DNA of 64,000 nucleotides from Cheilinus undulatus (Eukaryota; Chordata; Actinopteri; Labriformes; Labridae): the NCBI RefSeq assembly GCF_018320785.1, contig NC_054877.1, forward strand, positions 39,206,151-39,270,150, read 5' to 3'. Below, piece by piece: positions 8,701-63,980 of the stretch (position 1 is its first letter; each line of letters starts with the position of its first letter). Position numbers and translations under genes: made by a program. A model generated the notes under the pieces. The model worked only from the letters and a program-made list of their open reading frames with translations. It searched no databases and was not told the DNA's origin.

Positions 8701-11700
8701 ACCATAGCAACTATAGACATGTCAGTACACGACTTTTGTCGTTTCTGAAAAGAAAACAACTCACTGCTGTTCTTTGTTCTACTTTTAACAAAGAAATGTC
8801 GTCAAGTTCTGATAAAGCCCACTTTAGCGGCATCCACGCTAATGTCTTCCATCATAACGGCACGGCCTCTTGTTGCTGCTTGCCTATGTCATGACTCCGC
8901 CGTGCCCAAAACTACTGCCCCTCATCACTGATTGGTCCTGTCACTTTCTAACCGGGCCCAAATGGTTCAGACGGGAGCTTTGCAAGATGGATTTGCCAGT
9001 GAGAAACAAGGAAACGGACGTATCCATCTGCTTTGCAAAGTTAAAGAAAGTTAGGATAGTGGAAGACAAGAAAGCAGGGACGGAGAGCAAAATGTGGAGG
9101 ATGATGGGGGAGAAGAAAGCAGGGACAGAGAGTAAGATGAGGATGATGGAAAAGAAAGCAGGGACAGAGAGTAAGATGAGGAGGATGGAAAAGAAAGCAG
9201 GGACAGAGAGTAAGATGAGGATGATGGAAAAGAAAGCAGGGACAGAGAGTAAGATGAGGATGATGGAAAAGAAAGCAAGGACAGAGAGTAAGATGAGGAG
9301 GATGGAGAAGAAAGCAGGGACAGAGAGCAAGATGAGGCTAATAAACAGAACTAAGGTGAAGGAAATAACAAGTAAATTTAATTAACCATTTAAAAGAATA
9401 TTTCTAGGTAACATAGGAAAATTATAGTTCAAAATTAAGTCTAATAATTGCATAAATGTTCTTAAAACAATGCAACATTTCTTGCTCAGCTCTCTGGCTA
9501 AGGGGGGGCCATGTGTAATTTTCTTTCTGGGGTCCAAATTCCCTAGCTACACCCCTGTATGTACCACATTTCTGAGTCTTTTTTAATATCCCAACTTTGG
9601 TCTAGGTTTATGGCTTTACATAAACAATAAAACAATTACCTAATAAAAAGTTCCAGCCAGCCAATGTTACCAGGGACAGAAAGAAAAAAGCTCATGTTAT
9701 TAGGGGACAATGGTTATGTATTTAGAAAGTCTGAATCTGTTTAAAACTTGTGTGCATATAATTGTTGTATGAGTGTTTTTGCTAAGAAAATAACATTTGG
9801 CCATCATAGCTTGAATTAAGGATGGACCATGTTTTTGCTAACCATTTTTGGCCACCACATGTGACTGGGGCCCAGGAAACTTTCACCCTTTATCCCCCTT
9901 TATGGGTGGCCTTGGTTGGGCTGTGTGGGGAAACTGAAGAACAGACTACAGCAGTATTGAATCGGTAAAGTCACTTTATTTTAATTACTTTTTGGAAATA
10001 CTTTACAGCTAATATTGTTAAACTACCATGCGATAGAATTTTGAAAGCAAGACTTTCCTGTAACATTAGAAATTGTTGTGCTACTCTAAGTCCTAAGTAA
10101 ATTTTTAGTGGAGGTTACAGTTGAGATCATCAGTTATTGAAGACTAATATGGGACATCTAATAGACAAGACTCAGTTTTTATTTGCAATGTGGAGTTTTA
10201 ATGTGGAGCCCACTTAACAGGGCATTGGTTAGATATTTGTTTGGACGATTTGTTGCTGTTTTCAGAGGAGGATAGTATTTGGCTGTAGTAAGCTTCTAAG
10301 TTATGGTAGCAGCTAATTATACCAACAGGTTTCTAAAATAACTTGATATTTGTGCCACATTTTTGCAGTATGAAATCCCAGTTTTATATATTTATACATA
10401 TCTTTATAAGTTTGTAGTACACAGCAGAGTCTGTCTGCTCCAGCTGTGGTTAATGTAAATTAATTTATTCATGGTTTTTCTTGCAGGGGTGTTAGGTTTG
10501 TCATCAGCATTTCCCTGCAGATAACACAGCAGGCAGTAGTGATGACGGGGTGTTTTATTTTACAAGGTTCACGCTGTTCAAGCGCTTCAGTCTGCCTACT
10601 GAGAAGTCAGTGTGATGGCACATTACTGAAACAAAATGGTGGATTTATAAAGACCGTTTTTTCATAAAACAAAGAGTTTAGATCTTGTGTCATACAACCC
10701 CAATTCCAAAAAAGTTGGGGCAATGTTTAAAATGTAAATAAAAACATAAAGGAATCGTTTGCAAATCTCATAAACTCACATTTTATTCACAGTTGACCAA
10801 AAATGACATGTCAGATGTTGAAACTGACACTTTTGACCATTTCATGAAAATATTTTTATTTTGAACAGAATGACAGCAACAAATGTCAAAAAAGTAACAG
10901 GGTGAGAAAGGCTGGAGAAGTAAATGGTACTGATGACAAACAGCTGGAGGATAATTTTGCAGCTAACTAGGTTAACTGGCAACAAGTCAGTTACATGACT
11001 GGGTATAAAAGGAGCATTTTAGAGAAACAGAGTCTCTTAGAATTAAAGATGTGCAGAGGTTTGCCAATGTTGGACAAACTGTGGAACAAATGGTGGAACA
11101 AATTTCAGAAAAAATGTTCCTGAACGTAAAATTGTGAAGACTTTTAATATCCCAACATCAACAGGACATTATATCAGTAGTTCCAACCTGGTGGTCCAGA
11201 CACCCCTGGGGAGGGGCAGCTAGTGCCAAAGCCATATGTGAACCTGATTCTCCGGGCCAAAGCTCCTTTAGAATGGAGTGAGGCAAAATGGAAAACTGTT
11301 CTGTGGTCAGACGAATCAGAATTTGAAAATCTTTATGGAAACCACGTACGCTGAGTCCTGCAAACTAAAAGGGAGATGGACCATCCAGCTTGTTATCAGC
11401 ACACAGTTCAAAAGCCTGCATCTCTGATGGTGGGGGGTTGCATTAGTTTGGTAGCTTGCACATCTGGAAAGGCACTATCAGTGCTGAAAAGTATACAGAT
11501 GTTTAAGAGCAAATTATAGTCCCATTTTTAGAACCTACATCTGACAAGCATGGATCAACAGTCCTCTCCCAGAGCTCCAGCTACTGGTCTCCTCATTTTC
11601 TAGACATTTACAGACTGGTAAACAAAGCTTTTTTGAGATGTGTTGCTGCCATCAAATTCAAATGAGCTAATACTTTTCATGAAATGGTGAAATATCTCTG

Positions 11701-14418
11701 TTTCAACATCTGACATGTTATGAGATTTGACAATCATTACATTCTGTTTTTATTTACATTTTACATAGCGCCCCAGCTTTTTTGGAATGTGGGTTGTATT
11801 TTAGCTCTTATGTTTGTATCCATTGCTGTATCAGTGAAGAGCAAGCTGCTCCAGGTGAAAGATACATTCAGTTTAAATTTGAGAGCTTAAGTTGATTTGA
11901 GAGTAAAGGAAAGCAGATGAACAATAATTGAATGGTTTTTACTCATAGAAATACTGACCAGCTGCAGGGATGTGAGGTAACGTTTCCACCAGAGGTATTT
12001 CAACATTCCTGGACCCAACGCTGCCAGGCCGTAGTACAGATACATCACTACATGAACCAGAGAGTTAATCAGACCAATCAGGAAAGCTGTGGACACAAAA
12101 CAGAGGAGATTTTTACACTGCATTCTCTTCAAAACTAAATTTGGACAGCTCTTATATTTATGGCCGTAGTCTGAGACCAGATTGGCGTGTTGGCATTCAC
12201 TCACACTGGCCACCGGCCACATATTTCACCCCGGCCCACCAGTTGAAGATCATGGTGGCATGATGGTAGACGTGGAGGAAGGTCAGCTGGTTGTTCTTCT
12301 TCCTCAGAATGAAAAATATCTGAGCCACAGAGACAGAGAGATACTGTGACTGCAGTGTCACACTCACAGGCACAGACAGCACGTTTGAAAAGAAGAGCTG
12401 TCACTTTATCTGAGGATTTTAACCAGTAAAACTTTTTCTCCCTCCTGTCATACTCACAGTGTCACTGAGCTCAATGACTTTAGAGAAGTAGAACCACCAG
12501 CACACTCTTGCCATCTGTCCAACAGGGTGAAAAATGTGTGATTAGTCTGGTAGCATTTTTTCCTTCCCTGTGTATGATTTCTACTTCAGATTATTTGTTA
12601 AACAGTGATTTAAGAAGAGCATGCTCTGTTTCACTGTCATGTCAACATACTGACTGTTTGGCTTTTGTTTTGTTGACAGTATGTTGACCTTAAAGGTCGA
12701 GGCCAAAATCAAATTTCAGAACTGAGCTGTGTCTACAAGAGTATTAATAAAGATTTACCCGCATGGCCAGTGGGCTGTTGCTGTAGTCGACAGGCTGACA
12801 CAGCAGACTGTATTTGGCCAACCAGGAGGACGCTGTGAACTGGAGGACAGAGAAATTATTTCTTTTGTCTTTCAAAAAGCACAGGAGGTGTAAGTGTAAG
12901 TCGTGCATTTGTGCTTTTCATTTTCAAGAAAATGCAATAAAATAAAAGAAAAAGAAATCTGTTTCATTGGGTCTTTCTTAATCCAGTGTATGAGTGCCAA
13001 TGGGTGCAAAATTACATTTTTTTATCCTCTCATATCTGCACTCAAATGTTCCAAAAGTGCTCTGGAGCTGTGGTTCTCAACTGGGACACAAAAGTGGGTC
13101 ACGGAGCCATTTTCAGTGGGTCACCACCAGGTATCTGAAAAAACGAGTGGTGGCTAAACTCCTGAAGACCTTATTGGACATGCACTGATACCTTTCATTT
13201 ACCCTGTTGGGTAAATCTAAATGTTTGATCAATATTTCAACTAATTAATCTCCTATTCTTGCAATAAATGGATACTTTTCCCATGATAATGAAGTAATTT
13301 CACAAATTTCCTGGAAAATTGGCAAAAATTAACACATAATGATGGGAACAGAGGGTATAAAATCAGGTGTTTTGGTCCAATCATGCTCCAAACTGCAATG
13401 TATTCAGTTAACCAAACATGCATTGTAGAATTTTTTTTTAAACTTGGGTTGTGATCTGTTGTACGACAGACTGGTGGGTCTTAAGGCCGGATCAGTTGAG
13501 AACCACTACTCTAGATCAGGGTTGTCTAACTCATTTTGGGTCCTGGTCCCGTATGCCGGACAGTTTTTTGACATCAAATATAAATATCTATGAATATAAA
13601 TGATCCAATGATGCACATACCACCTGTCACATTTCTGTGACAGAAAAGATGTTTTCACTTTTCTGCCGCTCTGTTTTGGCATGGGTTTGCGATCATTACA
13701 GTTGGGTCTTCTGGTGAATCCAATAGCTGCTGCCGCGTTAGCTGTTAGCTTGGATGTAATCACAGCAGTCATAAGGCTTTCAGTACATGTAAACCCCGCC
13801 CATACCAAACTCTGTATGGCTCTGAAGGTATTGTCACTCAGTCAGTCAGTAAGTCACATGTGTAGGACTGACCTCAGCAATCAGCCAATAAAAAATGCTA
13901 ATTATTTGACAGCCCCTATGAATCCACATTTTAAAAGTGGAGCTGAAATAACAGAATAGAGAAAACCTTATGCAAAGAGCACATCATCCTTCTCCAGCCA
14001 TACATCACCTCAGACTAGCTGTTTCTACAACTTGCAGCAATCTGCCTTCACATGTGAACATTAACATTCAATAGTACCTCATAGAACATGTATGCAGACA
14101 GGCAGACCATGGCAAAGTTGTAAACAATCAGGACGGGTTTGAGGTTGACCGGCTGTCTTTTGGCCATCAGCTTTGGTCCCAGCCAGATAATGAACAGGTA
14201 ACACAGGAAGATACAGCCGACAGGAACAGGAGAATAGACCAGGGGCCAGCCATCTGTCCGCTTATCTGCACAGAGGATAAAGAAAAAAGATAACTGCTAG
14301 GTTTGATATTTTTTCTTCTATAAAACTGAAATATGCATGTAACAAACATTAGGGAAAGTGGTAACTTGCCTCCATTTCCCAGAATTCCTTGGTAGAAAAG
14401 TTGTAATTTCTGCCACAT
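5764..14418 (-). CDS. elovl8b: ELOVL8-type very-long-chain fatty acid elongase, 7 coding exons
   Basis: Seven minus-strand exons join in phase: 14418-14370, 14265-14078, 12839-12759, 12514-12458, 12319-12205, 12086-11959 and 5937-5764 (792 nt, 263 aa). ELOVL enzymes carry out the condensation step of microsomal fatty-acid elongation in the ER membrane. Exon 5 carries the catalytic histidine box HVYHH at about residues 141-145, after the family motif [14 protein letters not shown]. Other family blocks are KVIEL in exon 4, the hydrophobic MYLYYGL segment in exon 6 and several membrane segments. The protein ends KKTK, a KKxx ER-retrieval signal. Length fits ELOVL8 (about 263-267 aa), and the block [20 protein letters not shown] points to ELOVL8 rather than ELOVL4, which it otherwise resembles. 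Intron 1 has a GC donor; the other introns are GT-AG. The last intron (6 kb) is full of repeats. The 8b rather than 8a assignment is from memory of the paralogues and is less sure than the family. Confidence 0.87.
5938..8150. other. elovl8b: elovl8b last intron, first part: nothing recognised
   Basis: Intronic, AT-rich, with an A-run at 7034-7046. No coding exon, RNA gene or named repeat is visible. Confidence 0.5.
8900..9060. repeat. dispersed repeat shared with 33640-34085
   Basis: The segment with ACTGATTGGTCCTG...GGGAGCTTTGCAAGATGGAT has a diverged, inverted counterpart around 33900-34030 (GATCCATCTTGAAAAGCTCC in plus orientation). It is probably part of a nonautonomous DNA transposon; neither terminus was resolved. 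Confidence 0.45.
9068..9346. repeat. 39-bp minisatellite, 7 units
   Basis: Seven units of 39 bp (the first 45 bp) follow one another. As the period is divisible by three, one frame gives repeated [13 protein letters not shown] peptides (open from 8870 to 9385), and two minus-strand frames stay open as well. It lies in the last elovl8b intron. Open frames on both strands are explained by the repeat period, so I call no gene. Confidence 0.9.
10695..11796 (+). mobile_element. Tc1/mariner-type element with long terminal repeats, copy 1
   Basis: Terminal inverted repeats begin CAACCCCAATTCCAAAAAAG on the left. The right end, CAGCTTTTTTGGAATGTGGG then TTG, is flanked by TA. Internal text matches the fish family copies at 14754-15770, 26330-26935, 28900-28985 and 39371-41012. 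The transposase region is frameshifted and internally deleted. It lies in the last elovl8b intron. Confidence 0.75.
13068..13508. mobile_element. hAT-type MITE (GTGGTTCTCAACTG ends)
   Basis: The left end CTGTGGTTCTCAACTGG and the inverted right end TAGTGGTTCTCAACTG are flanked by 8-bp duplications, CTCTGGAG and CTCTAGAT (6 of 8 match; hAT elements favour such targets). A second copy is at 32132-32836. It inserted in elovl8b intron 2. Confidence 0.7.
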
Positions 14419-20799: not shown

Positions 20800-21450
20800 T
20801 CCTAAGGGCCGGACTATTTAGGCCGTTTGTGAAAGTCAATCGCAGATTCTGAATTTAGGCCTTACCTAAGAGCCTTAAAAAGTCAACATTTAAACATAAA
20901 CTGTCAACCTCATTCTCATCAATAGTAAAATATGAAAAAAATAACACTGATAATAAACCTTTCTGAGATGAAAAAAGTAAAAATGATAAGTTTAAAGTCA
21001 AAATTATTAGTTCAAAAAGTCAAAACATGAAATTCAAAGGCAAAATAATGTTTTTTAAAGGCAAATATATGAGATAGAAAGTCAAAATCACAAGTTTAAA
21101 AGGTAAAATTATATCTCAGAATTTTGAATTGTGAATCTTGAAGGTCAAAACATGAAAAAAGTAAAAACTACAAGTTTTAGTCAGAATTTTAAGGTGCAAA
21201 ATTGAAAATATGAAATGACAACATTAATTTCTTTTCTCCCCTTCCTGACTTATTTACTCTTTCCTTTTTCAGATTTTTATAATTTAACAAGGATATTTTA
21301 AATTGTCATGGTTAAGTTTACACGTTTACTGGAGGAAATCTGCAGACCTCATACTAGTGGGCCAGTTTTAATGGAAAGATTGTTTGAGCTCGCTGGATAC
21401 AACTGTACCACAAGCTGGATTTGGACCCCAGGTCTTGAGTTTGACACCTG
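20800..21450. mobile_element. hAT-type MITE (GGTGTCAAACTC ends), copy 2
   Basis: The right end CTTGAGTTTGACACCTG and the interior GTTTAAAAGGTAAAATT-type units match the 18808 copy. The left end is degraded. It lies just downstream of the selenop2 polyadenylation signal. Confidence 0.6.
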
Positions 21451-21625
21451 TGAGCCAAGAGAACAAAGTTAGTGCTCTTGAACAGCAAAAAGTGTTGTTT
21501 TAAATATTTTAAATAGAGTAAAACACTAATAATAGTCCAGTTAAGCTTTATATTAACATGACAGTGCCAAAGTCTGATTTTTCTGATGTAATTCAACAGA
21601 GCCAAAGTAATTTAGTCGTAATATC

Positions 21626-21631
21626 TTTATT
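21626..21631 (-). terminator. selenop2: polyadenylation signal AATAAA of selenop2
   Basis: AATAAA on the minus strand lies about 230 nt downstream of the SECIS element, so the transcript probably ends near 21605-21610. If there is no intron in the 3' UTR, it is about 2.1 kb long (23727-21605). Apart from the SECIS, that stretch shows only a G-run at 22406-22417 and low-complexity sequence. Confidence 0.6.
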
Positions 21632-21861
21632 GAATCACTTCCAAATACATGCACAAGTTTTGGATAAAAGAGGGCATGTTAAGTTCTGGAAGCGCTTTTA
21701 TGTACACAGTCATTTAGCAGCAAAGTCCAAATCCTAACAGAAAGAACTGACAGAAGCAGAAACTGAACAGGAAGGAAAATATCCAGACAGAAATCTCACA
21801 GAGGTTTACTCATCAGCATGCTCAACATCCTTAAACTCCGTCTGTGTCAGAATGACCATCG

Positions 21862-21947
21862 ATCCGTCCGCTCTCTCCTCACACATCCACCTACAGCCTC
21901 CTGCAGCAGGTTTGACACTGTAGACTTCATTAATGGGAGAGGACGGG
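21862..21947 (-). promoter_or_regulatory. selenop2: SECIS element (form II) in the selenop2 3' UTR
   Basis: Read on the minus strand, the 5' core ATGA (21930-21927) is followed by GTCTACAG, which pairs with CTGTAGGT through eight base pairs, two of them G-U. The apical part has AAA (21913-21911) and then a mini-stem CCTGC/GCAGG, the signature of form II. The 3' core GGAT (21888-21885) opposes TGAA with central tandem G-A/A-G pairs flanked by U-U. Below the core, CCGTCC pairs with GGACGG and CTCTCC with GGAGAG. This structure recruits SBP2 and the Sec elongation machinery and is needed for UGA recoding. Hand folding only, but every conserved element is present and correctly spaced. Confidence 0.85.
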
Positions 21948-23727
21948 CTGGGACAGGTGGCATTATGAACACAGAGGAGTAAGGTGTGAGCAAGCTAACA
22001 GAAAACCAGTCTGAGCACTGCTGGAACAGATTCCCAACTACTCAGTGAACTGCTAACAAAGTCAAAATAAAACACCAATGGTAAAATACACAAGTAAAAA
22101 CATTCTAGCAAAACACTAAAAAGCAAGTTCAACTAAAGAATTCTACTGTATTCACATTGCTGCAAAGCTTACTGTAATGTCATAAAACTACATCCAAAGT
22201 TGTGTAAAAGTAGGAAATCTCACTAATTTTTGAAATCACTGCCTCGAAAAAGACCAGAACTGAAAATATAAAAACTCTATCACTTATCATCAGAGTGGAA
22301 AGTAACTAACTGTTATTAAGTAGCTTTCAGTGTATTAGTAGGTTTTTTTAATATACATATATTTTTTAAAAATCTGTCATTTTAGCTTTATTTGTGTATA
22401 TTCTGGGGGGGGGGGGTACTGTAATCCATTACAATTTTAATGTTGTCACTTACTACATAAAAAAATCAAAATAAAATGTTAAAAGGAGGAGACTGAGTCA
22501 GAAACAGTCATGCACTCCAGCAGGCCTTCTGGGACCGCCTCCAGCGCTAACCGGAAGTGCCTTTTTCAGTGCATTTCTTCCTGATTATGAGAAACTTCTG
22601 AATGAAAACAAAACATCTGTTTTCTGGTTAGTAAATAAGCCTTGTGAGGTGATGTCTTTATTGAACAGAGTCCTCAATTCAAAACAAGGAGTAGTACTGG
22701 GAAGGAGGCCGCTGAGCAGTGCTGGTCTAAGCTGGCTGGAAATGCCTAGTGTGAGGGCTTTCCATGTTACAGAGGGATGTTTGGGCGATTGAACTCGCAA
22801 CCTTTGGCGCCCTCCATAAAACGACATGTCCTGTTAAAATACTGAAAATTCAGAATTCACCTTTTAAACTGAAAGACTAGTCCACTGAAACGCTGGCAAT
22901 GGAAGTTTACCTTCATAAAATAGCATCAGATATTGTAATAAATGGAAGTTTGAGTTCTAAATGCACTTGTATCTTTACCTTTTAGGAAGTAATGCAATTA
23001 ACAGACATATCAATTATGCCATATTGTCACAATGAGATAACCTCAATAAAAAAATTATAGACCTTAGCATGAGCGTATTTGTTATACAGGGGGAAGTGAC
23101 GCAGTGGTGGACAGAGATGGGGAGGGCAAAAAATTTTTGATTGTATTGAAAATCTACATATTTGTGGGGGGGTTTTTTGGAACCTGTTTCGAACCAGCAC
23201 ACCTAAGAAGTCCTCTGAGAGGAATCAAGGGCTATTGGAGCAGGAGTGGTTTGTAAATCAAGACAGACAGACATGCTGTAAGTTATTTCAGTGCAGAAAT
23301 TACATATTGTATCTTTGATAGTAACTAGGAATTAAATCATTTCCTCTCATATTGTATCAAACTAATGTTAATATTTATCTACCTCCTAGTTTATACTAAT
23401 AGAAGATATGGAGTTAATGACTGCTTCTATGAGCAGAATAATCAAACATGTTGTTTTGACCTACAAATGCAGTTCTATTCACCCAGGTTTTTCACCACTC
23501 ATTGACTTTTTTAGTTGCTGATCAGTCACAAAGCGTTACAACAATTTTAACTGGTCAATTTTTCTTCATTCACACAATTTAAAAACTAAAAAAAGCAGTA
23601 TTAGAAGATACGAGTGTTTCAGCCTCCTATCATGAGCTTCATATTTGAGGGAAATGGCTGCCATGTGAAATAGGGAATCAGACTGATGTCTGATTTATCC
23701 ACGTCTGTACCACCATGATGACTGTGG

Positions 23728-26700
23728 CTAATCTTGGTGATGATTATGATTATGATGTTGGTGGATATGTGGATGGCGATGCTGATGGGGTTGAGTGTTG
23801 TTATGACGTGTATGGCGCACAGGCTGGGATTGATTCCGGTCGTATTGAGGGTGATGGGGATGAGGGTTGTGGTCAAAAGGATGGTGGTGTTGATGCTGAT
23901 GTTCATGCTGAAGTTTACGATCTGGAGGAGGTGGATCCTCTTCTTCATCATCCACGGGTGTTATGGATGAAGGGTCGATGTTTGACAAAGTATCAAGGGC
24001 CTGAAAAACAGAAAAAGACATGGGAGAGTAACGTTTTACTCTACTAGTTTGGCCACTGGGGCAGCAGAAAAACCTAAAAACACAACACAGATTCTAAGAC
24101 ACTGAATAGAAAACTGCAAAGTGTTGAAAAAACAGGCCAATTTACAAGTGAATATTAAAAACCTGTTTCCTCTAGTGTCCAGAAGAAGCTGGATCCAAAA
24201 GTCTAAGTCCCAGCAGAAATTAAAGTGTTACAGTCTGCTTTAAAAATGTTTTTGACCTGGATTTCTAATAATTCTGGCCTTGATTGGTGGTGGACATGCA
24301 GGGAAATGCAGTAAAACACAGGCATGTGGGCTCATGAGAGGATTAAGTGTGACTGAAAAACTAGAAATAAAGAGAAAACACACTGATCATACTAGGGGTG
24401 GGACCAAAAATCAAAATATTGGGATATTTCCTGGTGTGATACTGTATCAATGTTTTAAACTGCAGTATCAATATTTTATTCATTAATAATTTACTTTGTT
24501 GGTGAGGGAGTTTGTAGTGCAATTTCACTCCCCAACAGAGTTGGCGGCAGGCACCGCTAGCTGCTAGCAGGCAGTTGACTCGTCCCTCTTCTCCCCTCTA
24601 CACAATGAGATCATGGAAGCCTTACGGTCTGAGCGAGCCAGTCACTCATACTTACCCAGCTGAGCGACTTCTGCTGCATTCATAGCGGATATGTGGACTT
24701 ATATTGGCTTCCAAAATGACGGTTCAAACTTAGACAGGAGTCAAGTCTATTGCAAGATATGCCACACCATAGTGAAATACTCAGACAATGTGACAAATCT
24801 GAGAACTAGCCATTTCAGCTAATGGCTAACGTTAACAAACAAGCCTGCTGAAGCTACTGCTGGTCTCTGCTCATGCAGCCATAATCACAGTCAATACCTT
24901 GTTTTACTTGTAAGGACCTACACCGTGTAGTGTCATTAAGAATGAAGGCTTTCATAACACAATTCTAAAAAAAAAATCGCTGTATCGTTATAATACCGGT
25001 ATTGTGGACCATGTAGCGTATAGTATCGCAAGTTACCCTGTGATTCCCACCCTTAGACCATACACTGGTGCTGCTGCTGTTATAACAATCTGAAAGACAT
25101 TATTATCACACTAACTTATATGTTTAGAAACCAGTCATTGGTCAGTTAGACCCAACAGAAATCATTATAGTCATTATATTTCAAGGAAAAATGGTTGGGA
25201 AACACTGTCTTAGACGTTCAGCAGTACATTGCACTGTGACATTATTCCCAGTGTAGTGTCCCAGTTAAGTATTTAGTGCAGATGCGTCTGATTTGAAACA
25301 GCTTCTGTGTTTTGTGATTACTCACAGTGCAGTTGCAGATGTCTTTAAAGTAAGTTGCTCTGATTGCAGCCTCGACGTAGGGGTAGTGAAGGAAACTGTA
25401 AGGCAGCACGATATGGAAGGTGAGCAGTCCACAGCTGAAGAAAACAAAATGACAGGGAGAGACAAAAAAGCACTTTATTGAATCTTTACTGGTTTGTTAA
25501 AGTGCAGAGTGTACTATTTCACCTAGTAGCATTCAGCAGAATGAACTTGATTCAAATGTGACATTTTTTTTTCTTAAGCAGGCCTATGTTAACATGAGTA
25601 TTTAATCACCTGAATGTAGTTTTATTTTAATTAACTTTGAATAAGCCTTTATTTAAACATAAGAAGGACCCCTTACATGGATGCCATCTTGGATGTGTTC
25701 ATCTTGCATGTTTGTACGGTACCACAGAAGGGACAAAACAACAGAATAATATTCTGAACTGAGATTTAGAGGTAGACATGCAGTTAGGTGATCTTAACCT
25801 GCAGGATTTCTTTTCATATGATTAACACATGCCTGGTGAAGTTTTGCACTCTTAATCAATACAAGACTAAAACCTTACAGCTGACCGATTTGATGTTGCA
25901 AAATATGAATCCTGCTTATTCTGAGATGATGTTTGCCTCACCGATCATAGACCAAGAAGTCATCTTTGTCTCCGTCCAGAGCCTCCCACACATCATTCTG
26001 AAGTGGAGCCTGCTGGTACACAGGAACATCGGTGGGCGCTCTTCTCTTCAGCTCCCAGTACATTGCTCTGGACTGAGCCTCCCTCTCATTTACTATCATA
26101 AAAGAAACTTCAGTGATGTTGCTGCGCTTCAGCTTCTCACGCAGGCCTCCGATCCTACAAACAGACAGATTAAGAAATGAGTTGATAACATCTTGTTGCT
26201 GATCCAGAGATTATTTGAATCTGATACCTAAATTCTTAGAGGTACACCACCTACAGTCTCGTTAACACCAGATGACATTTTGGGAAATAAAATGAGAAAC
26301 TTAAGAATCAGTCTTTCGGGATTCTTTTCGGTCCTCCAGATGTTGCTGGATGGTTCCTCTTCCCTTTAGTTTGCAGGACTTAGTGTCCATGGTTTCCAAA
26401 CAGAATTTCACATTTTTACACATCTGACCACAGAACAGTTTTCCATTTTGCCTCTGTCCACTTTAAATGAGCTTTGGCCAAGAGAAGACAGTGATATTTC
26501 TGGATCATGTTCACATATGGCTTCCTCTTATACAGATTTAACTTACATTTGTGGATGGCACAGGCGACTTGACAGACAATGATTTCTGGAAGTATTCCTG
26601 AGCCTGTGCAGTGATTTCCAGTTCAAAATCATGAATGTTTTATCCAGAGATCAAGAGCATCCCATATTGACCATCAGCCTTGTCCCTTGTGCACAAAGTA

Positions 26701-29700
26701 CTCCAGAATCTCTGAAACTTTAACTGTTATAATGTACTGTACATGGTGGGGTATTTAAAGTCTTTGCAATTTTTATGAGCTCCAGCTGTTTGTCATTAGT
26801 ACCATTTACTTTTCCAGCTTGTTGTTGACTTGTCCCTACTTTTTTAAAATTTGTTGCTGGCATCAAATTTAAAATTAGCTTATATTTGTATGAAATAGTA
26901 AAAAGTCTCAGTTTCAACATCTGAAATGTATTTTGTTGTTAAACTTCTGCAACGTACAAGCTCATTCAAACTGCCAGAGATAACTCATAAAAGCCAAGTC
27001 AGTTTGATTGTGTTAAAGACAGAAGAGTTTGTCTCTAATTTTATTTTAAGGTAGTTTGTTTTGTAAGCAAATAGCAAAGCTTTAGCTAGTCAGACTCATT
27101 CTTTTAAAGACAATTAAAGCATGCAAATTGGATCTTGATAGCAAAATCCCACTTTTTCAAACAAAAACCTCTTCTAAAAAATAACTTTTTGACTGCTTAG
27201 CCCTTCTTTCTCAAAACCTGATATGAAAAACGTTATGAGAAAACATTTAATAAAATAATAACCAGTCTGCTTGAAGGAAAAGGTTTGCCAACACTCTTAT
27301 AAATATTGATGTACCTAAGGCTAAAGCTACTGAAGCTAGCATAGCTACATAACTTACACAGCAAAGCAAAAACAAATGAAACTAAGTAAGCTATGTACAC
27401 AATGTAGCTTATACGGCTAAATCTGAAGCTAACAAAGCTAATGTAGCTACACGACTTACACAGCTAAAGTGAAAACAAATGAAACTAAGCAAGCTATGTA
27501 CATTGTGTAGCTTATGTGGCTAAATCTAAAACTAACAAAGCTAATATAGCTACATGACTTACACAGTTAAAGCAAAAGCAAATGAAACTAAGCAAGCTAT
27601 GTACACAATGTAGCTTAAGTGGTGAAATGTAAAGCTAACAAAGCTAACGTAGCTACAAGACTTACAAAGCTAAAGCAAAAGCAAATGAAACTAAGCTTTG
27701 TACACAATGTAGCTTATGTGGCTAAATCTAAAGCTAAGAATCTTAACATTAACATAACTACATAAGTTACACAGCAAGAGCAAATGAAGCTATGTAAGCT
27801 ATGAACATAATGTTAACAGCGTTACATGAACTACATAGCTAACATAGCTATATAACTTTCACAGCCAAAGCAAAAGCAAATGGAACTATGTTAGCTGCAC
27901 TATGCTATGTTTGCTAAAGCTCTAGCTGTTTAAGGAGTTATGCAAATGCTGGTTCACTTTACCTTCATTAGCTTTAGCTCAAGCAAACGTAGCTGCATTT
28001 GTTTACATAGTAGCTTAAACTATGGAGCTAGCAAAGCTATGTTAACTTTAGATAAAGCTAGCAAAGCTAAAGTGAGCCTCCATTCACATAACTACTTCTA
28101 AAACAGCTCTATACATAATTTAATCTTAGATTAGACATCTAATGTATTTTTGTTTTATTTAATAAATGTTTGTAACATTTGCAATTATTACCATTGCCAA
28201 GGAGGTAATGTGATCAGGTGGGTTTGTTTGTTTGTTTGTTCGTTCGTTCGTTTGTTGGTTTGTTAGGTTGTTAGCAACATAACTCAAAAAGCCATGGATG
28301 GATTTTGATGAAATTTTCAGGAAATGGCAGAAATGGCATAAGGATCAAGGAATTTTTTTTAAAGGATTCTGTACTATTGGGAGATAGGTCTGTGCTGTTA
28401 CCACTTTACACCAGGAGATGGCGGACATGAGTAACTTATCCAAAATTTTGGAGTTAATAGAGTTCGAAAGATGTACGCCCGGTCAAGGAGATGAGTGGGA
28501 GTGTAACAGAGAGAAAGACAGCGAATTGTAGCGAGAAAACTCAAAATGCTGGGAGGAATAGAGGAATATTCACCCTCTGCCATGACTTTCACACGTAGCG
28601 AAGCCAATGCTTTGTCTCACTGTGTCTCCACCCCACTGGGGAGGGAGTAATTGGCAAATTACATTTTGGGAGTGATACCGATCACCGTCTGGATCCACGA
28701 AAGGATTCTTCACTATTGGGAGATAGGGCTAACGGCGGAGGTCTGTGCTCTCTGAGTGCTTTTCTAGTTTTTTAATGTATCTATCTCTGTCAATTGGCTG
28801 TAAGGAATCAATGTATGACATTTTAGCAGTTAGCATATAAATATCACAATTTAAAATCAGCGGGCTGACAGTGCTGCAGATGAGGGGGAAAGGATTTTCC
28901 CCCTTGAAATCGTAAATAAAAACAAAGTGCAATGACTTTCTAATCTCATGAACCCATATTTTATTCACAACAGAATACAAACCACATATCTGCTGCCTGT
29001 TGCACCTGCTATGCGTAAGTTCTGCCTTAAGTTATGGTGTAAAGTCCACACTAAACCTTACCTTCAAACTAGTTAAGTCCTAACTTAAGTTGTGTCATTG
29101 TTTGGTTGCACCACAGAAACATAAGGTTGATCAGAACTAGAAGAGATTCACGTCCAAACTAACCAATATATTGTCGCAGATATGTTCAGGTATCCTCTTA
29201 CTTTAACCAATAAGTAGCTGGGTTTCCATTACACTTGGAAATTCGCAAAATCGATAAAAAGCATGATGAAAAACTGGTAATGGAAACACCTGAATTTTGA
29301 AAAAACCCTAAAAAAATCGCTAAAAAGTGTTTACGCTCTCAGGAGGCGGTTTTTCAGGCGTTTTGATATAGAAATATATCACAAAAGTGTAATGGAAACA
29401 CTTTTTCCGCATTTACAAGTCACGGGACGTGACGTACAGTGTCACATGACCAGTCACTCCGAGACAACATGGCGCGGTACGTGTGGACAGAAGAAGAAAC
29501 AAGACTTTTCTTAACATGATACTTCTACTCTTATACGTGGCTTTTGCCATACATACGGACTTGACCTCTGAACTATCATCTGTTGCCTTCGTCTTTTGTT
29601 CAAAATTATCAAGGCAACCGCCGTAGATGTAACCAAAACAGTACCAATATGCAACAGGTTTTGAGCGTTAAGCTTCCCTGCAGAGGATTCACGCGAGATG

Positions 29701-31006
29701 AGATTGTACGAGAATTGCAAGGCCTATGCCCAAAACTCCCTTCAATGGAAACGCATTCAAAGCGCAATTGTACCTGATTGAAATTTAAGAGATATAGCTT
29801 TTATTTTGCGAAAAACTGTAATGGAAACCCAGCTATTGGAAGCATTTTTTTAACCCTGTGTTTGCTACAGATTATAACGGCTAAAAATAACATTTGCTAA
29901 GTGCTGTTAATCATCAAACAGCATCCAGCGTGGACAAAAAATATGACCAGGCATTTTGTGAGTATTGTGAAGCCTACAGCCTAAACCTAGAGCCAGTATA
30001 AATAACAACACTGACATCGAGTGGTGAAATCGCTAAAATCACAAGATAATGTAACAGTGGACGGCGGAAATGATCTCCGCTCACAGAAAACAACAGTGTT
30101 ACTGATCATGGAGAACGCAGTGCTACCTCCAAATTTCCGGTAAAGTCCTCAACTTTTCGTCACCTTCAGGGTTATCACGTCTTTTAGAGCTATCACTATG
30201 ATGGGCATATTCTGTGGAGGACTTTACACCTAGTAGGGGTAAGATTTTAGTTACCTCCGCCAAGGAGGTTATGTGATTGGCACGGTTTGTTAGTTAGTTA
30301 ATTTGTTTGTTAGTTTTTTGTTAGTTTGTTAGCAATTTAACTCTAAAAGTTATCGATGGATTTTGATGAAATTTTCAGGAAATGATTCAGAAATGGCATA
30401 AGGAAGAACTGATTAGATTTTGGGAGTGATCCGGATCACCGTCTGGATCCAGGAATTTTTTTAAAGGATTCTGTATTATTGGGAGATAGGGCTAATGGCG
30501 GAGGTCTGCGCTCTCCGAGTGATTTTCTAGTTTTAGGAATGTAATTTCCAGATTTTGTTTATGAATAAAGGTGAATTTAAAAAAAAAATGGCCCTTCTAC
30601 AACGCTGTACCAGAAAATGATGTCTCTTACATTCTGACAGAGGTTACGTCTCACAGCAGTGGACTGCAAGTAGGAACGTCTGAGATTGGTGGTCTGCAGC
30701 CAGGCCCTTCTTAAATATATACATTCTTTAAAACAGTTTAACTAACCATACAAGCCCATTCACCAAATTCCTTTCTTACTTGGAGGCCTGAGTGAGACAG
30801 AAATGTCAGCTGGCCTTCAGCAGTGCCACCACGACCACATTTCCCAGCAGCGCTTTCATGGGTGCCTTTCCCTTAATATCCCAGTGAGGGGCAGGTCTGC
30901 AAATCATGGAGGCATTGTTGTCCCCCTCCACCTCCAGAGTGACATGAGAGGCCCACAGCAGAGCTGGCAGGGCCGCACACAGCCACAGCAACAAGAGGGA
31001 GCGCAT
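23728..31006 (-). CDS. selenop2: selenoprotein P2 (single-Sec, His-rich), 4 coding exons with in-frame UGA
   Basis: Minus-strand exons 31006-30780, 26154-25942, 25434-25326 and 24000-23728 join in phase (822 nt, 273 aa when UGA at 30808-30806 is read as selenocysteine). Selenoprotein P is a secreted plasma selenium protein with a thioredoxin-like N-terminal domain. Residues 1-19 form a signal peptide. Sec67-His-Phe-Cys70 is the UxxC redox motif after VALLKAS. Exon 2 holds SFMIVNE, VPVYQQAPLQ and DGDKDDFLVYDR; exon 3 holds CGLLTFHIVLPYSFLHYPYV and an NCT glycosylation site. Exon 4 is acidic-proline, then histidine-rich (22 His in about 70 residues), and ends at TAG. The Sec-rich C-terminal region of selenop1 is absent, so this is the single-Sec paralogue (also called sepp1b or selenopb), known from fish and lost in placental mammals. 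Ordinary gene finders would stop at the UGA and truncate exon 1. A SECIS candidate lies downstream. Confidence 0.93.
24393..25055 (+). mobile_element. nonautonomous hAT element with a BED zinc-finger fragment
   Basis: Terminal repeats TAGGGGTGGGA and TAAGGGTGGGA (inverted) are flanked by 8-bp duplications GATCATAC (24385-24392) and GACCATAC (25056-25063). On the plus strand, around 24705-24815, the translation resembles the N-terminal BED zinc finger of hAT transposases (VYCKICHTIVKYSDNVTNLR). The His pair that should follow is replaced by a stop. It inserted in selenop2 intron 3. Confidence 0.75.
26330..26935 (-). mobile_element. Tc1/mariner-type element fragment, copy 3
   Basis: Minus-strand text matches the interior of the 10695 family (for example ACCACAGAACAGTTTTCCATT in plus orientation near 26428, shared with 40541). 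It ends in the inner part of the terminal repeat (TTTCAACATCTGAAATGTAT). It lies in selenop2 intron 1. Confidence 0.6.
27300..27930. repeat. AGCTA-rich tandem array, ~104-bp period
   Basis: The landmark GCTATGTACACAATGTAGCT recurs near 27389, 27492, 27597 and (shortened) 27689, giving a period of about 104 bp. Flanking units such as ACTTACACAGCTAAAG keep the same spacing. The array decays toward 28080 into scattered AGCTA/GCTAA words. It lies in selenop2 intron 1. Confidence 0.8.
28190..28770. repeat. dispersed repeat (GCCAAGGAGGTAATGTG start), longer copy
   Basis: It shares its start (GCCAAGGAGGT), middle (GATGGATTTTGATGAAATTT) and end (GGCGGAGGTCTGTGCTCTC) with 30250-30535, in the same orientation. 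This copy has about 300 extra bases and a GTTT/GTTC microsatellite at 28224-28260. A partial internal duplication of the GGATTCT.ACTATTGGGAG block is visible (28358 and 28694). Confidence 0.7.
28900..28985. mobile_element. Tc1/mariner-type terminal fragment, copy 4
   Basis: Only the inner terminal repeat remains: AATCTCATGAACCCATATTT with flanking text matches the 10695 and 39371 copies. Confidence 0.55.
29215..29835 (+). mobile_element. MITE with perfect 19-bp terminal repeats and a SANT-like fragment
   Basis: TAGCTGGGTTTCCATTACA at the left is exactly inverted at the right. Internal inverted copies of TAATGGAAACAC-type words occur near both ends. From 29469 the plus strand reads MARYVWTEEETRLFL then a stop, like the start of a Myb/SANT-type DNA-binding domain of PIF/Harbinger elements. 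I cannot find a clean target duplication. It lies in selenop2 intron 1. Confidence 0.7.
30250..30535. repeat. dispersed repeat (GCCAAGGAGGT start), short copy
   Basis: A second copy of the family at 28190-28770, also in selenop2 intron 1 and in the same orientation. It runs from CTCCGCCAAGGAGGTTATG to GGAGGTCTGCGCTCTCCGAG. Confidence 0.7.
30806..30808 (-). other. selenop2: in-frame UGA selenocysteine codon of selenop2
   Basis: The minus strand reads GCC AGC TGA CAT TTC TGT, giving Ala-Ser-Sec-His-Phe-Cys. The frame stays open after the TGA to the splice donor (AA then GTAAGA at 30780/30779) and resumes in phase in exon 2 with LREKL homology. A Sec-x-x-Cys pair at this place is the hallmark of the selenoprotein P redox centre. 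A plain nonsense mutation is unlikely, because conserved sequence continues directly downstream and a SECIS structure is present. Confidence 0.93.
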
Positions 31007-31990
31007 CGTGCCTCCCTTGCTGGACTAGAAAATACCTGATGGAAGAGAAAACAGAAAATAAATGTCATATCATGATAGATGATAATAGAGACAAATGCTC
31101 TCTCTAAAAGATCAAGTAAAGAAAGTGAATTTTAACCTTTTTTAGGCCTAACTCTTTATATTTTAACTAAATGTCTACACTGGTCAAAATTCCAGTTATC
31201 CTCATTATTATTACGGTAAACAACAGAGCAGGGCATCAAAGCAGATTCAGTCTTTGGCAGATTTCCCCACACAATAACAAATCTCCTGTCAGTCTGATCC
31301 CCTAATAATTAAAAGAGTAAACCCTCATTGTCTTTGTTATCACATGTGGAGATAATCTGTAAAAGAGTTTGTTATGCAGAAAACAGAGGGAAGAATGTCG
31401 GGGTCAAAGGGACAGACAGGCTGGTAGACAAAGAGAAGCTGGGACAAATATTTACAGCTACGTGAAGGCTACTGTCTGCACAAACAATGAAGAAATGGGA
31501 CATTTGAGGCAAATTTCAACTAATTTTAATACAAGTCATTAAAGCTGTACATATTTTTATCAATTGGTTTGTTAGAGTATTTTAAAAAGGGTCATGCACT
31601 TGTCTATATCCTTGAATAAAAAGGACTAAATTCAATAGATAATTGTAAACCTAATAAATTCAGACCCCTTGAATGGCTATCAGACATATAAACAGACCTT
31701 AAAATGATTTATCCTCCAGATTTATAATAGTTTTAGTAAACGATCATTCTGAGAAACTCAAGTAACAGCAGGGTAAGACTATACTTGTTAACACAGAGTA
31801 TTTTTCACATGAAAACATGTAGATAAAAATAAAACAAACATGAGCGTAAAAGCAGCTCTTACCTCTGTCCTCTCTCTGTCCCGTGACCCACATAAACAGA
31901 CAGTAAACTGCTGTTGTTTTTAAAGCCTGTGGGGTTGATGAAGCTCTTCCCCCAAAACAAACAGAGAGAGAGAGAAAGGGGGTGAAACAG
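31007..31990 (-). promoter_or_regulatory. selenop2: selenop2 5' UTR exon and TATA-like promoter
   Basis: The coding exon has a short leader bounded by an acceptor (TTCCATCAG then GTATTT at 31035). An upstream donor, CAGAG then GTAAGA, lies at 31863/31862. About 55 nt upstream of that donor, the minus strand reads GGCTTTAAAAACAACAG (near 31925-31909), a plausible TATA-like box that would place the transcription start near 31885-31890. A GA/CT microsatellite (31964-31978) sits just upstream. The exon and start site are inferred from sequence signals only. Confidence 0.45.
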
Positions 31991-41700: not shown

Positions 41701-44700
41701 GGCCAGGGTACTAAAGTATTATTTATTTTGAAAGGGCATATGGAAAACAAGAAAATGGCCCGTAAGTTAACGTAAACTTTTCAAAATAATAGCCTGAGTA
41801 AGAAAATAAATGTCTATCCATCTATCCAAGTTATTGTAGATGAAGTTGTGGTAAAGAAAGGCTAAAAGAAACAGTTATAAAAACAAATATCAACTGCACA
41901 TCTTTGCAGTTTTCTTGATTTTCATACAGTCAAATGCCCTTTCAAAATCAATGATACTTTGGTGCACTGACCAGCCACCAAGACTACCCTGAAGGAGAGA
42001 CTGCATCCAACTGTTACCCAGGTTTTTCACCAGTCAAAGCTTTATGGGAGAGTAGCAAAGAGGAAGCCACTGTTGAAGAAAACTCAGGTTAAATCTGGAC
42101 TAGAGTTCACCACAAGGCACATGGGAGACTCCATGGTCAAGAGGCAGAAAGTTCAAAGGTCTGATGAGACCAAAATGGGGCTTTTTGGCCATCAGACGAC
42201 AGAATATTTGGAGACACCAAACCCTGCACATCCCCACAGACGCACCATCCCCACTGTAAAGCACAGTGGTGGCAGCATCATGCTGTGGGGATGTTTCTCA
42301 GCAGCCAGCCCTGGAAGGCTTGAAAAGGTAGAGGGTAAAATGAATGTGACAAAATACAGGAAAATTATGGAAGACGATCTTATTCAGTCTGCAAAAGAAC
42401 CATGGCTTGGGAGAAGTTTTATTTTCCATCAAGACAAGGACCCGAAGCATACAGCAAAAGCTATTCAGAAATGGTTTAAAGACAACAAGGTGAATGTTGA
42501 CAGAGTTTTTTTTAGAGGGGTCAAAAAAGCCAAACTATATTGACAATGACTGATTCTTAAATCAATACAAGGGTAAAGCATCCAAGAGAGTAAACACTGT
42601 TTATAGGCACCATAGCTGTCCAATGTGTTTCTTTACCTTGATTGGTCGATACATGTTGGGCTCTTTGATGCGCAGCACAATCTGCCCAGCGACAGTGACG
42701 CCGTAGAAGAGGTAGTTGATGAAACCCACATAGTTTATGAGGGTGTAAATGTCACTGGTGCACAACATCAGGAGAGTGGAGATCAACTGTATGTGGTTAG
42801 AGAGGAGAAATGTTTGAATGTTGCTGCTGGTGAGAACACAAGATGTATAAAAGTTGAAAGTAAGAAGTTGTGTTCTAGGACTCACAGTAAACAGTAAGGC
42901 TGGGATGGGAGTGCAGCGCTTAACATGAATCATAGCCAACAGACGTGGGAGATGACCTTCCCTCGCCCCGGCAAAAAACAGCCTGAGATACAAAGACAAC
43001 GATGGGTTAGGTCATCAGAGAAGAGCCAGCTGGTACATGATCAAACATGTGCACTCGCCATTGAAAATAGAAGCCTGTAAAGTAAGAAAATAAAAGGTGC
43101 AAAATGTGCAGCTCTATCAAGTGTGTTGGGACATGTAACTCAAGCAGGACCATCTTGGTAGAGTCCAATATGCTTCTCAAAGAGGAGAGAATATGATTCA
43201 GGCAGTGTCCCCTCAATCTCACACTGAGTTTGTTAACACAGAGATGAATAGCTGTGCTTGTTTATTTTACTCCTGTTTATCTTCTTAATTTCACCCTGCT
43301 TGCCCTGATTTTCCATGTAAATCAAATGGAAGTAAAAGGCGAATAATTAAAAAGGGAAAATGCTCAACAAAAGCAAAAATACCATTAATAAAAGCAGCAG
43401 CTGAAACTGGACAGAGAAGGAAAGGAGGACAAGACAAGTGTGGAGACATGGGAGACAAACTGACCGCGATGACGTGAAGAGGGAGCCATTGACCCCCCCG
43501 AACGTAGAGAGAGCCACAGAGATGGGCATGATCCATGACATTACTCCTAGCAATTTCTCTCCAAATGTCTGGGAGAAATATTAGGAGTAGAGAAAGAAAA
43601 GAGGAGCAGACAACAAAACACTTATAATTGCAACTAATCTGGATATTTCTAAGTGAAGTGTTTGAGGGAAACAGATTAAGCATGGCTTGGATAGATGTCA
43701 TCACTCTAAATGGCTGCTGCAAAGACAAAACTACATATCTAGGTGATAACAGGCTGTGCTAACTAAATGCCTAGTCATGCATTATCAGATTTAAATTATG
43801 TAGGGTTGTTTTCTTACCACTGCCACAGCATTGGAGGCCAGGAGCTCCTGTGGGCTCATGGCGGTGACATAGGCCACGTTGGCAAACACATAAACAAAGG
43901 TGACCACAGGGATGGAGATGAAGATCGCACGAGGTAAATTCCTAAGAAAACGAAGCAAACAGTTACTTATTGTACGTGAATCCTTTTCTGTGACATTAAG
44001 TTTATGTTCCCATAAAAAACACACAAAGTAAAAAGAAATCTTATTGTAAATAAGTTCTCGTGAGCATAAATGTAAAGATGTGAATCTTCCACACAGTTGT
44101 ATAGTTATAATGATGATGTATGGTTGAACAAATTCCCACTCCACACCTGGACTTTCCTCAAGGCACACCAGTGTGACTCTGCACACCATCTAGGAACCAC
44201 AGGTGTCCACTATTAAGTGTTTGGAATTTCCCCTTGTAGGACTAACAAAGAAATATCTTATACTATGACTTTAGTTAATATAATTTGACAACCTAGGAGA
44301 AGACAGAGCCTCATGCCCTCATGCCATTTAGCACTGATGATAAATGATTTTGAGATTTAAAAAAGTAAAAATGGTAAGTTTAAAGACTCAGAACCTGAGA
44401 TTAAAATTTTAACTTATGAGCTAAAAAGGCATTTAAAGTCAAAATCATGTTTTTAAAAGGCAAATATATAAGAAAGAAAGATTTTATTGTGATTTTTATT
44501 GGTCAAAATGTGATAAAATTAGAAATCATAAGTTTTAAAAGATCAAAATATGAGATAAATTTCCAAATCATTGGTTTAAAATGTTAATAGTTGAGGAAAA
44601 AAATAGATTTTGAGTTTAACAGGTAAAATATTACTTAAAATTTAGAATTGAGTATACAAAAGACCAAATTATGAGATAAAAGTCAAGGCAAGGAGCTCAA

Positions 44701-47700
44701 AATGTAAAAACGCAAGAAAAAAAACCATAAAAATCGTGAGTTTAAAAAGGTCAAAATATTACTCAAGAATTTAAAATTGAGGATCTTGCAGATAAAAAAA
44801 TAAGATTAAAGTTCAAAAATGTGAATTGAAAAGGTCAAAACATGAAATAAAAGCTCAAAACCTTAGCTTTGCGTGATAACTGTGAGATCCAAAATCAAGA
44901 AAATGAAATTAAAAACAGAAATATATTTTCCCACATTCCTGACTTTTTATCTAATTATTTTATTTTTTTCTTATTTTTATGACAGAACAAGGATATTTTA
45001 AATCATCGGGGTTAGGCTGACATGTTTAAACTGGAGGAAATCTGCAGATCTCAAACCAGTGGGCCAGTTAGCCTATAATAAAAATATGTTATGACCTGGC
45101 GGGCCAGGTATAACTGTACCACGGCCAGATTGGGCCCCCGGGCCTTGAGTTTGACACCCCTGCTTTGTGGTTAACAATTTCTTCAGAAATTGTAAGGGAA
45201 TTCATGTGGATTTTTGAATGGAAAATGTCCAGGAAATCCCGTTTTTTTTAGTGCTTGGGATTAACAAGTCCTTGTGGTCCATCTGCATGACACTGGTGCA
45301 TGTCATTACTAAGGGAGCCACAAGAGGGGGTCAGAGTGCCAGTAAGCATTACTGTAATGCACTGACTATTCATTATTGTCTCTGACATAAATATGCTGTT
45401 TGTTTAATAAACGTGTGATGACTGCAGAAGCTAAATGAAGCTGTGTGATTCTGAATCTGATTACCAGAGGTACAAGGTCTCAGACAGAAGCCATTCCTTT
45501 CAGAGAAGCCTGTTTTTATTTTTTGGCAAGATCCAAAAGATAACCAAATAAAGTAATTTTGCTGCAGAATATTTTCATACCACCATCCATTTAACAAACC
45601 ACAGATTTCAAAGTGAAAAAAAAAATGCTAAGAAATATGGTTGGCTTTAATTTACCTCCTGTAGGGGTGTCTGAAAACCTTTTCTGGGAGTCTGTCTTTT
45701 ACCATTTTTATCTCTAATTGTATTTATTTATGGTGCTGTACTCCCCTTTGTCAGTGCCGCTGTGTTACCTGTAAGGATCAACCAACTCCTCTGTGACGTA
45801 GTTGAGGAAGTTCCAGCCCCCATAAGCGAAGGAGCCTTGTAGGAAAGACAGAGCGATCAGACCAACTTCATAGTCCCTGAAGGTCTCAAAGGCGTGGACG
45901 GGCTCCAACCAGTAATAGTGGCCTGTAAACCAAAAAGCAAGGATATGTTTCATTAAAAACTATGCCTTAATGTCAGCTTTTTATCAACTGGCTGGCATTT
46001 TGTCTTTAGTATCTAGGTTTTTATAATCAAAATAAAATAGAAATAGTATTTAATCAGCTGAAATAATTGTACTTGATTCAATTGCTGTGCACATGTAAGT
46101 CCCTGTTTATTTGAACTGGAATGAAACCCAGTAACTCCTCTCATGACCTCAGAAAAAAGTCAGGAAATAGTTCCTAAAATAACCAAAAACAAAGGCCTGA
46201 GTCAGATGAAGATGTTCTCTGTGCTCATGTCAGGATTATATGCATGACTTGGTGCTGTGACTCTAAAATCACATGAGAAATAAAAGAGGGCTTCATTGTA
46301 ATAACAGCTAAAGCCAGTTTCTGTTTACACATCATGCAGACAGTAACTTTCAAACTGATACAGGAAAATGGAGGATACATGATATGAAGGAGCAAACATT
46401 ACCCTTGCATATTTGGACGACACCCATGATGATGATAAGGCCCAGGGCTAAAAGCTTTCCTGCAGTGAAAACATCTTGGACACATGTCGCCCAACGCACA
46501 CTGTAGCAGTTCACCCACGTCAGCAGCACTAAAAGAAAAGTAAGGGATTTTTTTATGTGGGCTGATATTCCAACAAGTGAAATATTAATATGAGAGCTCA
46601 ATCTCAAGCAATTTGAGTGCATTCGGAAGTGCCAACAATTTTTCTCACATCAAATTTAGCTTTTTGAAAGAGACAACACTGTAAATGACATGTTATCGTC
46701 ACTTGAGTAGAAATCTCTCATTCTAGCTTGGTTTTAGCTTAGCTTGATTTTTCCTTAGATGAAGCTCACAGACCCAAACAGCTGTTCTGATACACTGAGG
46801 CAGAAGAACATATAGCCAGTAGCCAAAACTCAAACTGCAAAATGCCAAACAGAGGCTTTCTGGATGAAAAATAAAACTCTTCAAAGATTTCTGAGCCAGC
46901 ATTGTTTCTTGGCCCTTTTTAACCTTGAACTCACTAAATTACACAGAGCAGCTTTAACCGTCTGTGGCGCCATATAGCCTAGCTTCTCTAAGCTCATCCT
47001 ATATGAAGGTGCAAGGCACACTGAAATCTCTGAAGGACAATGGCACCACTATATATACAAAGCAACTTCAAAAATACAGAAAAATCCCTTTTAGCTTTGA
47101 AATGCCTCTATGCACAATGCAGAAATTACATTTTCATTCTCTGATTTAAAAAGAAGGCATGAAAAACTAGTGTCAAAAAGAATGGCAGCTTCAGAAATGG
47201 GGGCAACCTGCAGGAAATACCAAATTTGGTAAAGAATATACTTGAACTATATCAACCCTAGTCTTACAAACGTATAAAACTGTGGAGACGTAGAGCAAGA
47301 ACACGAAATAAAGCACGCCATCCCTGAAATAAAACCGCTGTGCTGCTTCATAAGCCATATCTGTAAATGCACAAACCTTAATCGATACACCAACAGCCAT
47401 TTAAACTTAGGTTTTACTGAATGACTCACGCAGGCAGACAGCAGCCAGCAGGCGCAGGCTGCTCTCAGGGGGGAGGCAGGAGGGGAAGAGGGGCTGCAAG
47501 ATGTAGTTGGAGAAGGTGAGAGCGATCACAGCCTGGTTAGTCGGGTAGATAACCAACAGTGCAATCCACAGCCGCAGAAATCTAAAGGAAAACAAAGAGG
47601 TGGTTAATGAGCCGTGAAACAGACCGGTGTCTCACATTCTCAGAACAACAGTGTTATAGAATACCAGCCATTATTATAGATAAATGTAATAGGAAAACAA

Positions 47701-59185: not shown

Positions 59186-63980
<4,795 letters not shown>

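Follow-up and report, generated by a model that had tools for sequence, protein, structure and literature searches.

A predicted selenop2 gene of Cheilinus undulatus with a single selenocysteine codon and a type II SECIS element about 1.8 kb past its stop codon

The 64,000-nucleotide stretch of Cheilinus undulatus DNA analysed here (assembly GCF_018320785.1, contig NC_054877.1, positions 39,206,151 to 39,270,150 of the forward strand; referred to as the window, with position 1 as its first letter) very likely carries on its minus strand a selenop2 (SelPb) gene with one selenocysteine (Sec) at UGA67 and a selenocysteine insertion sequence (SECIS) element at 21947-21862. The copy is intact and an ordinary member of its kind, that is, one more orthologue of a gene already known and published. 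An earlier sequence-only reading had drawn attention to both the in-frame TGA and the hairpin, and this observation is confirmed as real and right in the main, while the interpretation given to it is supported in part. The significance lies mainly in annotation, as gene finders treating every TGA as a stop would reduce selenop2 to 66 residues.

Joining the four coding exons (Table 1) results in 822 nt and a 273-residue frame containing two stop codons, the TGA at codon 67 and a TAG at codon 274 (23730-23728). The TGA is thus the sole internal stop, in line with the single-Sec protein deduced previously. For comparison with the Pfam SelP_N profile (PF04592), either Sec was entered as Cys or both sides of the TGA were searched apart. 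In the first case, the whole joined product matches profile positions 2-233 of 234 at E 3e-76. In the second, the 66 residues upstream of the TGA match positions 2-36 (E 1.3e-9) and the 206 residues downstream match positions 38-233 (E 9.3e-59). As the matches stop at 36 and resume at 38, the TGA corresponds to profile position 37, and from the highly significant match of the downstream part it follows that coding extends beyond the UGA. Hence, the TGA at 30808-30806 does lie within conserved selenoprotein P sequence, as had been claimed.

All three coding introns are of the GT...AG type, with donors scoring 7.7, 7.5 and 6.6 bits and acceptors 8.5, 11.2 and 15.0 bits, using matrices of approximate frequencies. 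A further strong acceptor (TTTTCTCTTCCATCAG/G, 12.7 bits) is found 29 nt 5' of the ATG at 31006, which fits expectation because exon 1 of published SelPb genes is non-coding (PMC6301783). The first coding exon encodes a hydrophobic N-terminus, which, judged by eye, is a probable signal peptide, so that the product is probably secreted. In the last exon, 22 of the 90 encoded residues are His, and a second stop (TAA) follows 11 codons past the TAG.

The minimum free energy (MFE) fold of the hairpin shows helix I, an internal loop at ATGA/GGAT, helix II, an unpaired AAA and a 4-bp mini-stem CCTG/CAGG closed by a 3-nt loop. Owing to the mini-stem above the apical AAA, the element is to be classified as type II. 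Letters and fold agree with the hairpin outlined by the sequence-only reading at 21947-21862, with ATGA, AAA and GGAT on paired helices, as well as with its assignment to form II, but the CCTGC/GCAGG mini-stem also proposed is not borne out, as a fifth base pair would leave a loop of only 1 nt. The core features of eukaryotic SECIS elements, namely the GA/GA quartet, the apical AA and the length of helix II, are all present. The Rfam family SECIS_1 (RF00031) aligns along its entire length to 21939-21875 of the minus strand with 34.0 bits against a cut-off of 35, corresponding to E 0.00023 when searching 21400-23900 and to E 0.0058 for the window as a whole with all 4227 families. This is the top Rfam match in both searches, and up to E 10 no other SECIS_1 match came up in either. 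From the TAG stop to the ATGA core there are about 1.8 kb, a spacing given correctly before, and we infer that the element is located inside the 3' untranslated region (UTR) of the selenop2 mRNA. An Rfam match to the snoRNA sR2 at 23733-23787 on the plus strand (26.6 bits, cut-off 42, E 0.081) was taken as chance, since it runs antisense to the His-rich coding stretch.

In eukaryotic Sec decoding, the SECIS element recruits SBP2/SECISBP2 and eEFSec with Sec-tRNA[Ser]Sec. In the selenop2 mRNA, the predicted SECIS would thus bring the decoding factors to the ribosome, and selenocysteine would be inserted at codon 67. The resulting 273-residue product would have a thioredoxin-like domain, the U-H-F-C redox motif of which holds the one Sec, and a His-rich tail. 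Should Sec insertion fail, the ribosome would stop at codon 67. Three exon junctions follow this codon, the first at a distance of 26 nt and the last at 348 nt, so that nonsense-mediated decay of the mRNA would be expected.

The assignment to selenop2, also made by the sequence-only reading, agrees with the SelP_N match, the GT-AG introns and the published SelPb layout. According to the literature, SelPb/SELENOP2 carries just one Sec UGA together with one type 2 SECIS (PMC5133445) and a His-rich region without a Sec-rich region (PMC2397514), and SelPb of zebrafish and medaka as well as salmonid SelPb1 are encoded by five exons, the first being non-coding and the first coding one bearing the UxxC motif (PMC6301783). 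The window gene shows the full-length SelP_N domain, a single UGA at codon 67 within the U-H-F-C motif of the first coding exon, a His-rich last exon without a Sec-rich tail, and one SECIS_1 match in the window with a mini-stem above the AAA. Of the five-exon layout, the four coding exons and the acceptor preceding the ATG are seen, while exon 1 was not located. The gene therefore shares four coding exons, a UxxC Sec, a His-rich tail and a type 2 SECIS with SELENOP2/SelPb (Sepp1b) of fishes, birds and other vertebrates, and no feature outside this family was found, its own dimensions being an intron 1 of 4.6 kb with repeats and a 3' UTR of probably about 2.1 kb. Within the family, it differs from salmonid SelPb2, which has 3-4 Sec and three coding exons (PMC6301783), and from Xenopus SelPb, in which Cys stands in place of Sec (PMC2397514). 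SELENOP/SelPa is alike in its SelP_N domain with UxxC, and intron positions are common to SelPa and SelPb (PMC5133445). However, the tail of SelPa is rich in Sec, encoded by many UGAs, and in most cases there are two SECIS elements, salmonid SelPa2 with one SECIS being an exception (PMC6301783). Consequently, with one UGA, one SECIS match and a C-terminus not rich in Sec, identity with SelPa was rejected.

In the simplest model, the 3' UTR is one exon of about 2.1 kb, ending at an AATAAA 2096 nt past the stop. If it is continuous, the distance from the UGA to the SECIS core amounts to 2418 nt. In mammalian selenoproteins, UGA-to-SECIS distances range from 207 to 5207 nt, Dio2 showing the longest average distance, and the 3' UTR has a mean length of 1027 nt, with a mean of 5174 nt for Dio2 (PMC3316567). 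Hence, as far as a comparison with mammals only allows, the selenop2 3' UTR is long, not exceptional; the length of about 2.1 kb put forward earlier is retained, whereas its being unusual is not. Decoding across a long 3' UTR is shared with the Dio2 mRNA, the protein being unrelated. An explanation of the length by repeats that also occur elsewhere in the window was rejected, as blastn with low-complexity filtering gave no match at E 1e-3; a repeat confined to the 3' UTR would escape this comparison. Inverted repeats of at least 14 bases, sought with 9-base seeds, were not found in the 3' UTR either.

Alternatively, the gene might be selenop2 as described, with an intron in the 3' UTR and the SECIS in a separate last exon, which we regard as unlikely. 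Candidate donors (for example, 22860 with 8.5 bits) and acceptors (for example, 22597 with 11.9 bits) within the 3' UTR do score like the real sites of the gene. However, if only sites scoring no lower than the weakest one of the selenop2 coding introns are counted, the 3' UTR holds 4 donors (1.77 kb searched) and 3 acceptors (1.75 kb searched), compared to minus-strand densities of 1.6 and 1.85 per kb, respectively, determined from 59.9 kb. Being near background density, these candidates give no evidence for an intron. Moreover, counting the non-coding exon 1, not located here, brings the gene to the five exons of zebrafish and medaka SelPb with no need for an intron in the 3' UTR (PMC6301783), and SECIS elements lie mostly within the exon bearing the stop codon (PMC3316567), arguing against a separate last exon.

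Poly(A)-type signals between the stop and the SECIS deserve attention. Besides the expected signal downstream of the SECIS, two AATAAA motifs are located upstream of it (Table 1), as are ATTAAA variants at 22441 and 22352 on the minus strand, so that, judged by these motifs, SECIS-less mRNAs would be possible. There may be a slim chance that the AATAAA motifs at 22662 and 22392 are used and that part of the mRNA, lacking the SECIS, would have its translation ending at codon 67. If true, poly(A) site choice would switch the entire selenoprotein on or off, since use of the early sites would remove the only SECIS. Partial precedents are human SELENOP, losing one of two SECIS elements via a poly(A) site (PMC5133445), and a human SelS variant losing its SECIS via splicing (PMC3316567). 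The possible poly(A) sites ahead of the SECIS thus pose a small, testable question of regulation.

It is quite improbable that the hairpin is a chance look-alike, with the real SECIS elsewhere in the 3' UTR, but several results weigh against the reading preferred here and have to be considered. First, the SECIS_1 score is 1 bit short of the curated gathering cut-off of 35, which is why a scan at gathering thresholds listed 0 Rfam matches. Second, a loose home-made SECIS descriptor matched 8 of 769 ATGA sites on both strands of the window versus a mean of 7.07 matches per set in 30 random sequence sets with the same dinucleotide make-up, hence without any excess over random sequence. Third, the z-score of the fold varies with the boundaries of the cut. 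For the 86-nt hairpin, a folding energy of -33.0 kcal/mol and a z of -2.86 were obtained (1 of 200 shuffles as stable), while cuts of 65 and 101 nt show values of -1.50 (20 of 200) and -1.46 (22 of 200), respectively. Fourth, seeking relatives in genome contigs gave 75 pattern matches, none confirmed by tblastn. Outside the hairpin, the thioredoxin-like fold of the product is taken from the literature (PMC2397514) rather than from Pfam, where the Redoxin match attains only 13.6 bits (E 0.058), below the cut-off of 26.6; a sequence search for a solved structure matching the product likewise returned 0 matches at E up to 1.

On the other side, the hairpin has its core elements at the right spacing, on the right strand and in the right place, and gives the only SECIS_1 match up to E 10, the Rfam covariance model scoring sequence and fold jointly. 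It is also the most stable of the 8 descriptor matches, the next one folding at -25.5, and in 60 further random sets none of the 416 matches reached -33 (lowest value, -30.9), although 32 of the 416 had at least 23 pairs, as many as the selenop2 hairpin. As the random sets carry the window-wide composition, the local G+C favours the hairpin in this energy comparison, a bias from which the 200-shuffle controls are free.

A reading of the UGA as a true stop, with the gene being a 66-aa remnant or a pseudogene, is scarcely credible and was rejected: treating TGA as a stop indeed shrinks the frame to a 66-aa open reading frame (ORF), the only one for the gene start in the mechanically made ORF list (at least 60 aa) and the truncation at residue 66 foreseen earlier for standard models, but the intact joined frame runs 206 codons past the UGA to one terminal stop with matching splice phases, SelP_N continues behind the UGA, and a SECIS is found downstream.

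Table 1. Features of the predicted selenop2 gene in the window (positions of the window; all on the minus strand).
Feature	Position	Strand	Characteristics and basis
5' UTR part of first coding exon	31007..31035	-	after predicted acceptor; non-coding first exon further upstream not located
First coding exon	30780..31006	-	hydrophobic N-terminus, U-H-F-C motif; joined frame, SelP_N profile 2-36, donor CAA/GTAAGA
Sec codon TGA	30806..30808	-	codon 67, U of UxxC; in frame with ATG 31006, SelP_N breaks at profile 36/38
Second coding exon	25942..26154	-	part of SelP_N domain; joined frame and Pfam
Third coding exon	25326..25434	-	joined frame and Pfam
Last coding exon	23728..24000	-	His-rich tail, TAG stop 23730-23728; joined frame
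Predicted 3' UTR to AATAAA	21632..23727	-	single exon in simplest model; AATAAA 2096 nt past stop, splice-site scores
AATAAA upstream of SECIS	22657..22662	-	possible early poly(A) signal, would drop SECIS; motif only
Second AATAAA upstream of SECIS	22387..22392	-	motif only
Type (form) II SECIS	21862..21947	-	ATGA 21930-21927, AAA 21913-21911, CCTG 21910-21907 / CAGG 21903-21900, GGAT 21888-21885
AATAAA downstream of SECIS	21626..21631	-	expected canonical poly(A) signal; motif only

Within intron 1, a tandem-repeat-like block extends over 27280-27904, with self-matches offset by about 100, 200, 300 bases and more that are 66-87% identical. In addition, this intron bears dispersed repeats at 26345-26942, 28188-28771 and 30251-30534, whose longer matches are 78-84% identical and whose copies are found near 11 kb and 40 kb of the window or inside intron 1 itself.

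The neighbourhood was characterized in part, by comparing 11 of the window's 43 stop-to-stop ORFs with a length of 100 aa or more to Pfam. The selenop2 gene is placed between an ELO-family elongase and, further upstream, amino-acid-permease-like and PRMT5 exons. The elongase, which we take to resemble Elovl8, is represented by two exon pieces within 11914-12290 on the minus strand (near 12274 and at 12093-11914; PF01151 with E 1.5e-10 and 9.9e-14, respectively) showing an HVYHH motif of ELO-family fatty acid elongases. Permease-like exons are spread over 42601-50700 on the minus strand and probably belong to an SLC7 transporter, the PF13520 matches at 42601-43011 (E 3e-06, 26.9 bits, cut-off 27) and near 50597 (E 0.0094) both being under the curated cut-off. 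An exon of the arginine methyltransferase PRMT5 is found at 61876-62187 on the minus strand (PF05185, E 1.3e-26). In the available portions of PMC8392482 and PMC12025145, neither selenop, sepp1, prmt5 nor slc7a is mentioned. On the plus strand, Tc3-type and Sleeping-Beauty-type transposase fragments are present at 41971-42543 and 2400-2729 (HTH_Tnp_Tc3_2, E 1.6e-07; HTH_SB, E 1.5e-12). Together with selenop2 itself and its neighbours, such transposon types point to a fish, probably a teleost. Finally, an ORF at 8858-9385 on the plus strand contains seven copies of a short repeat and faces a largely open opposite strand (8941-9381, minus); it resembles a minisatellite more than a gene.

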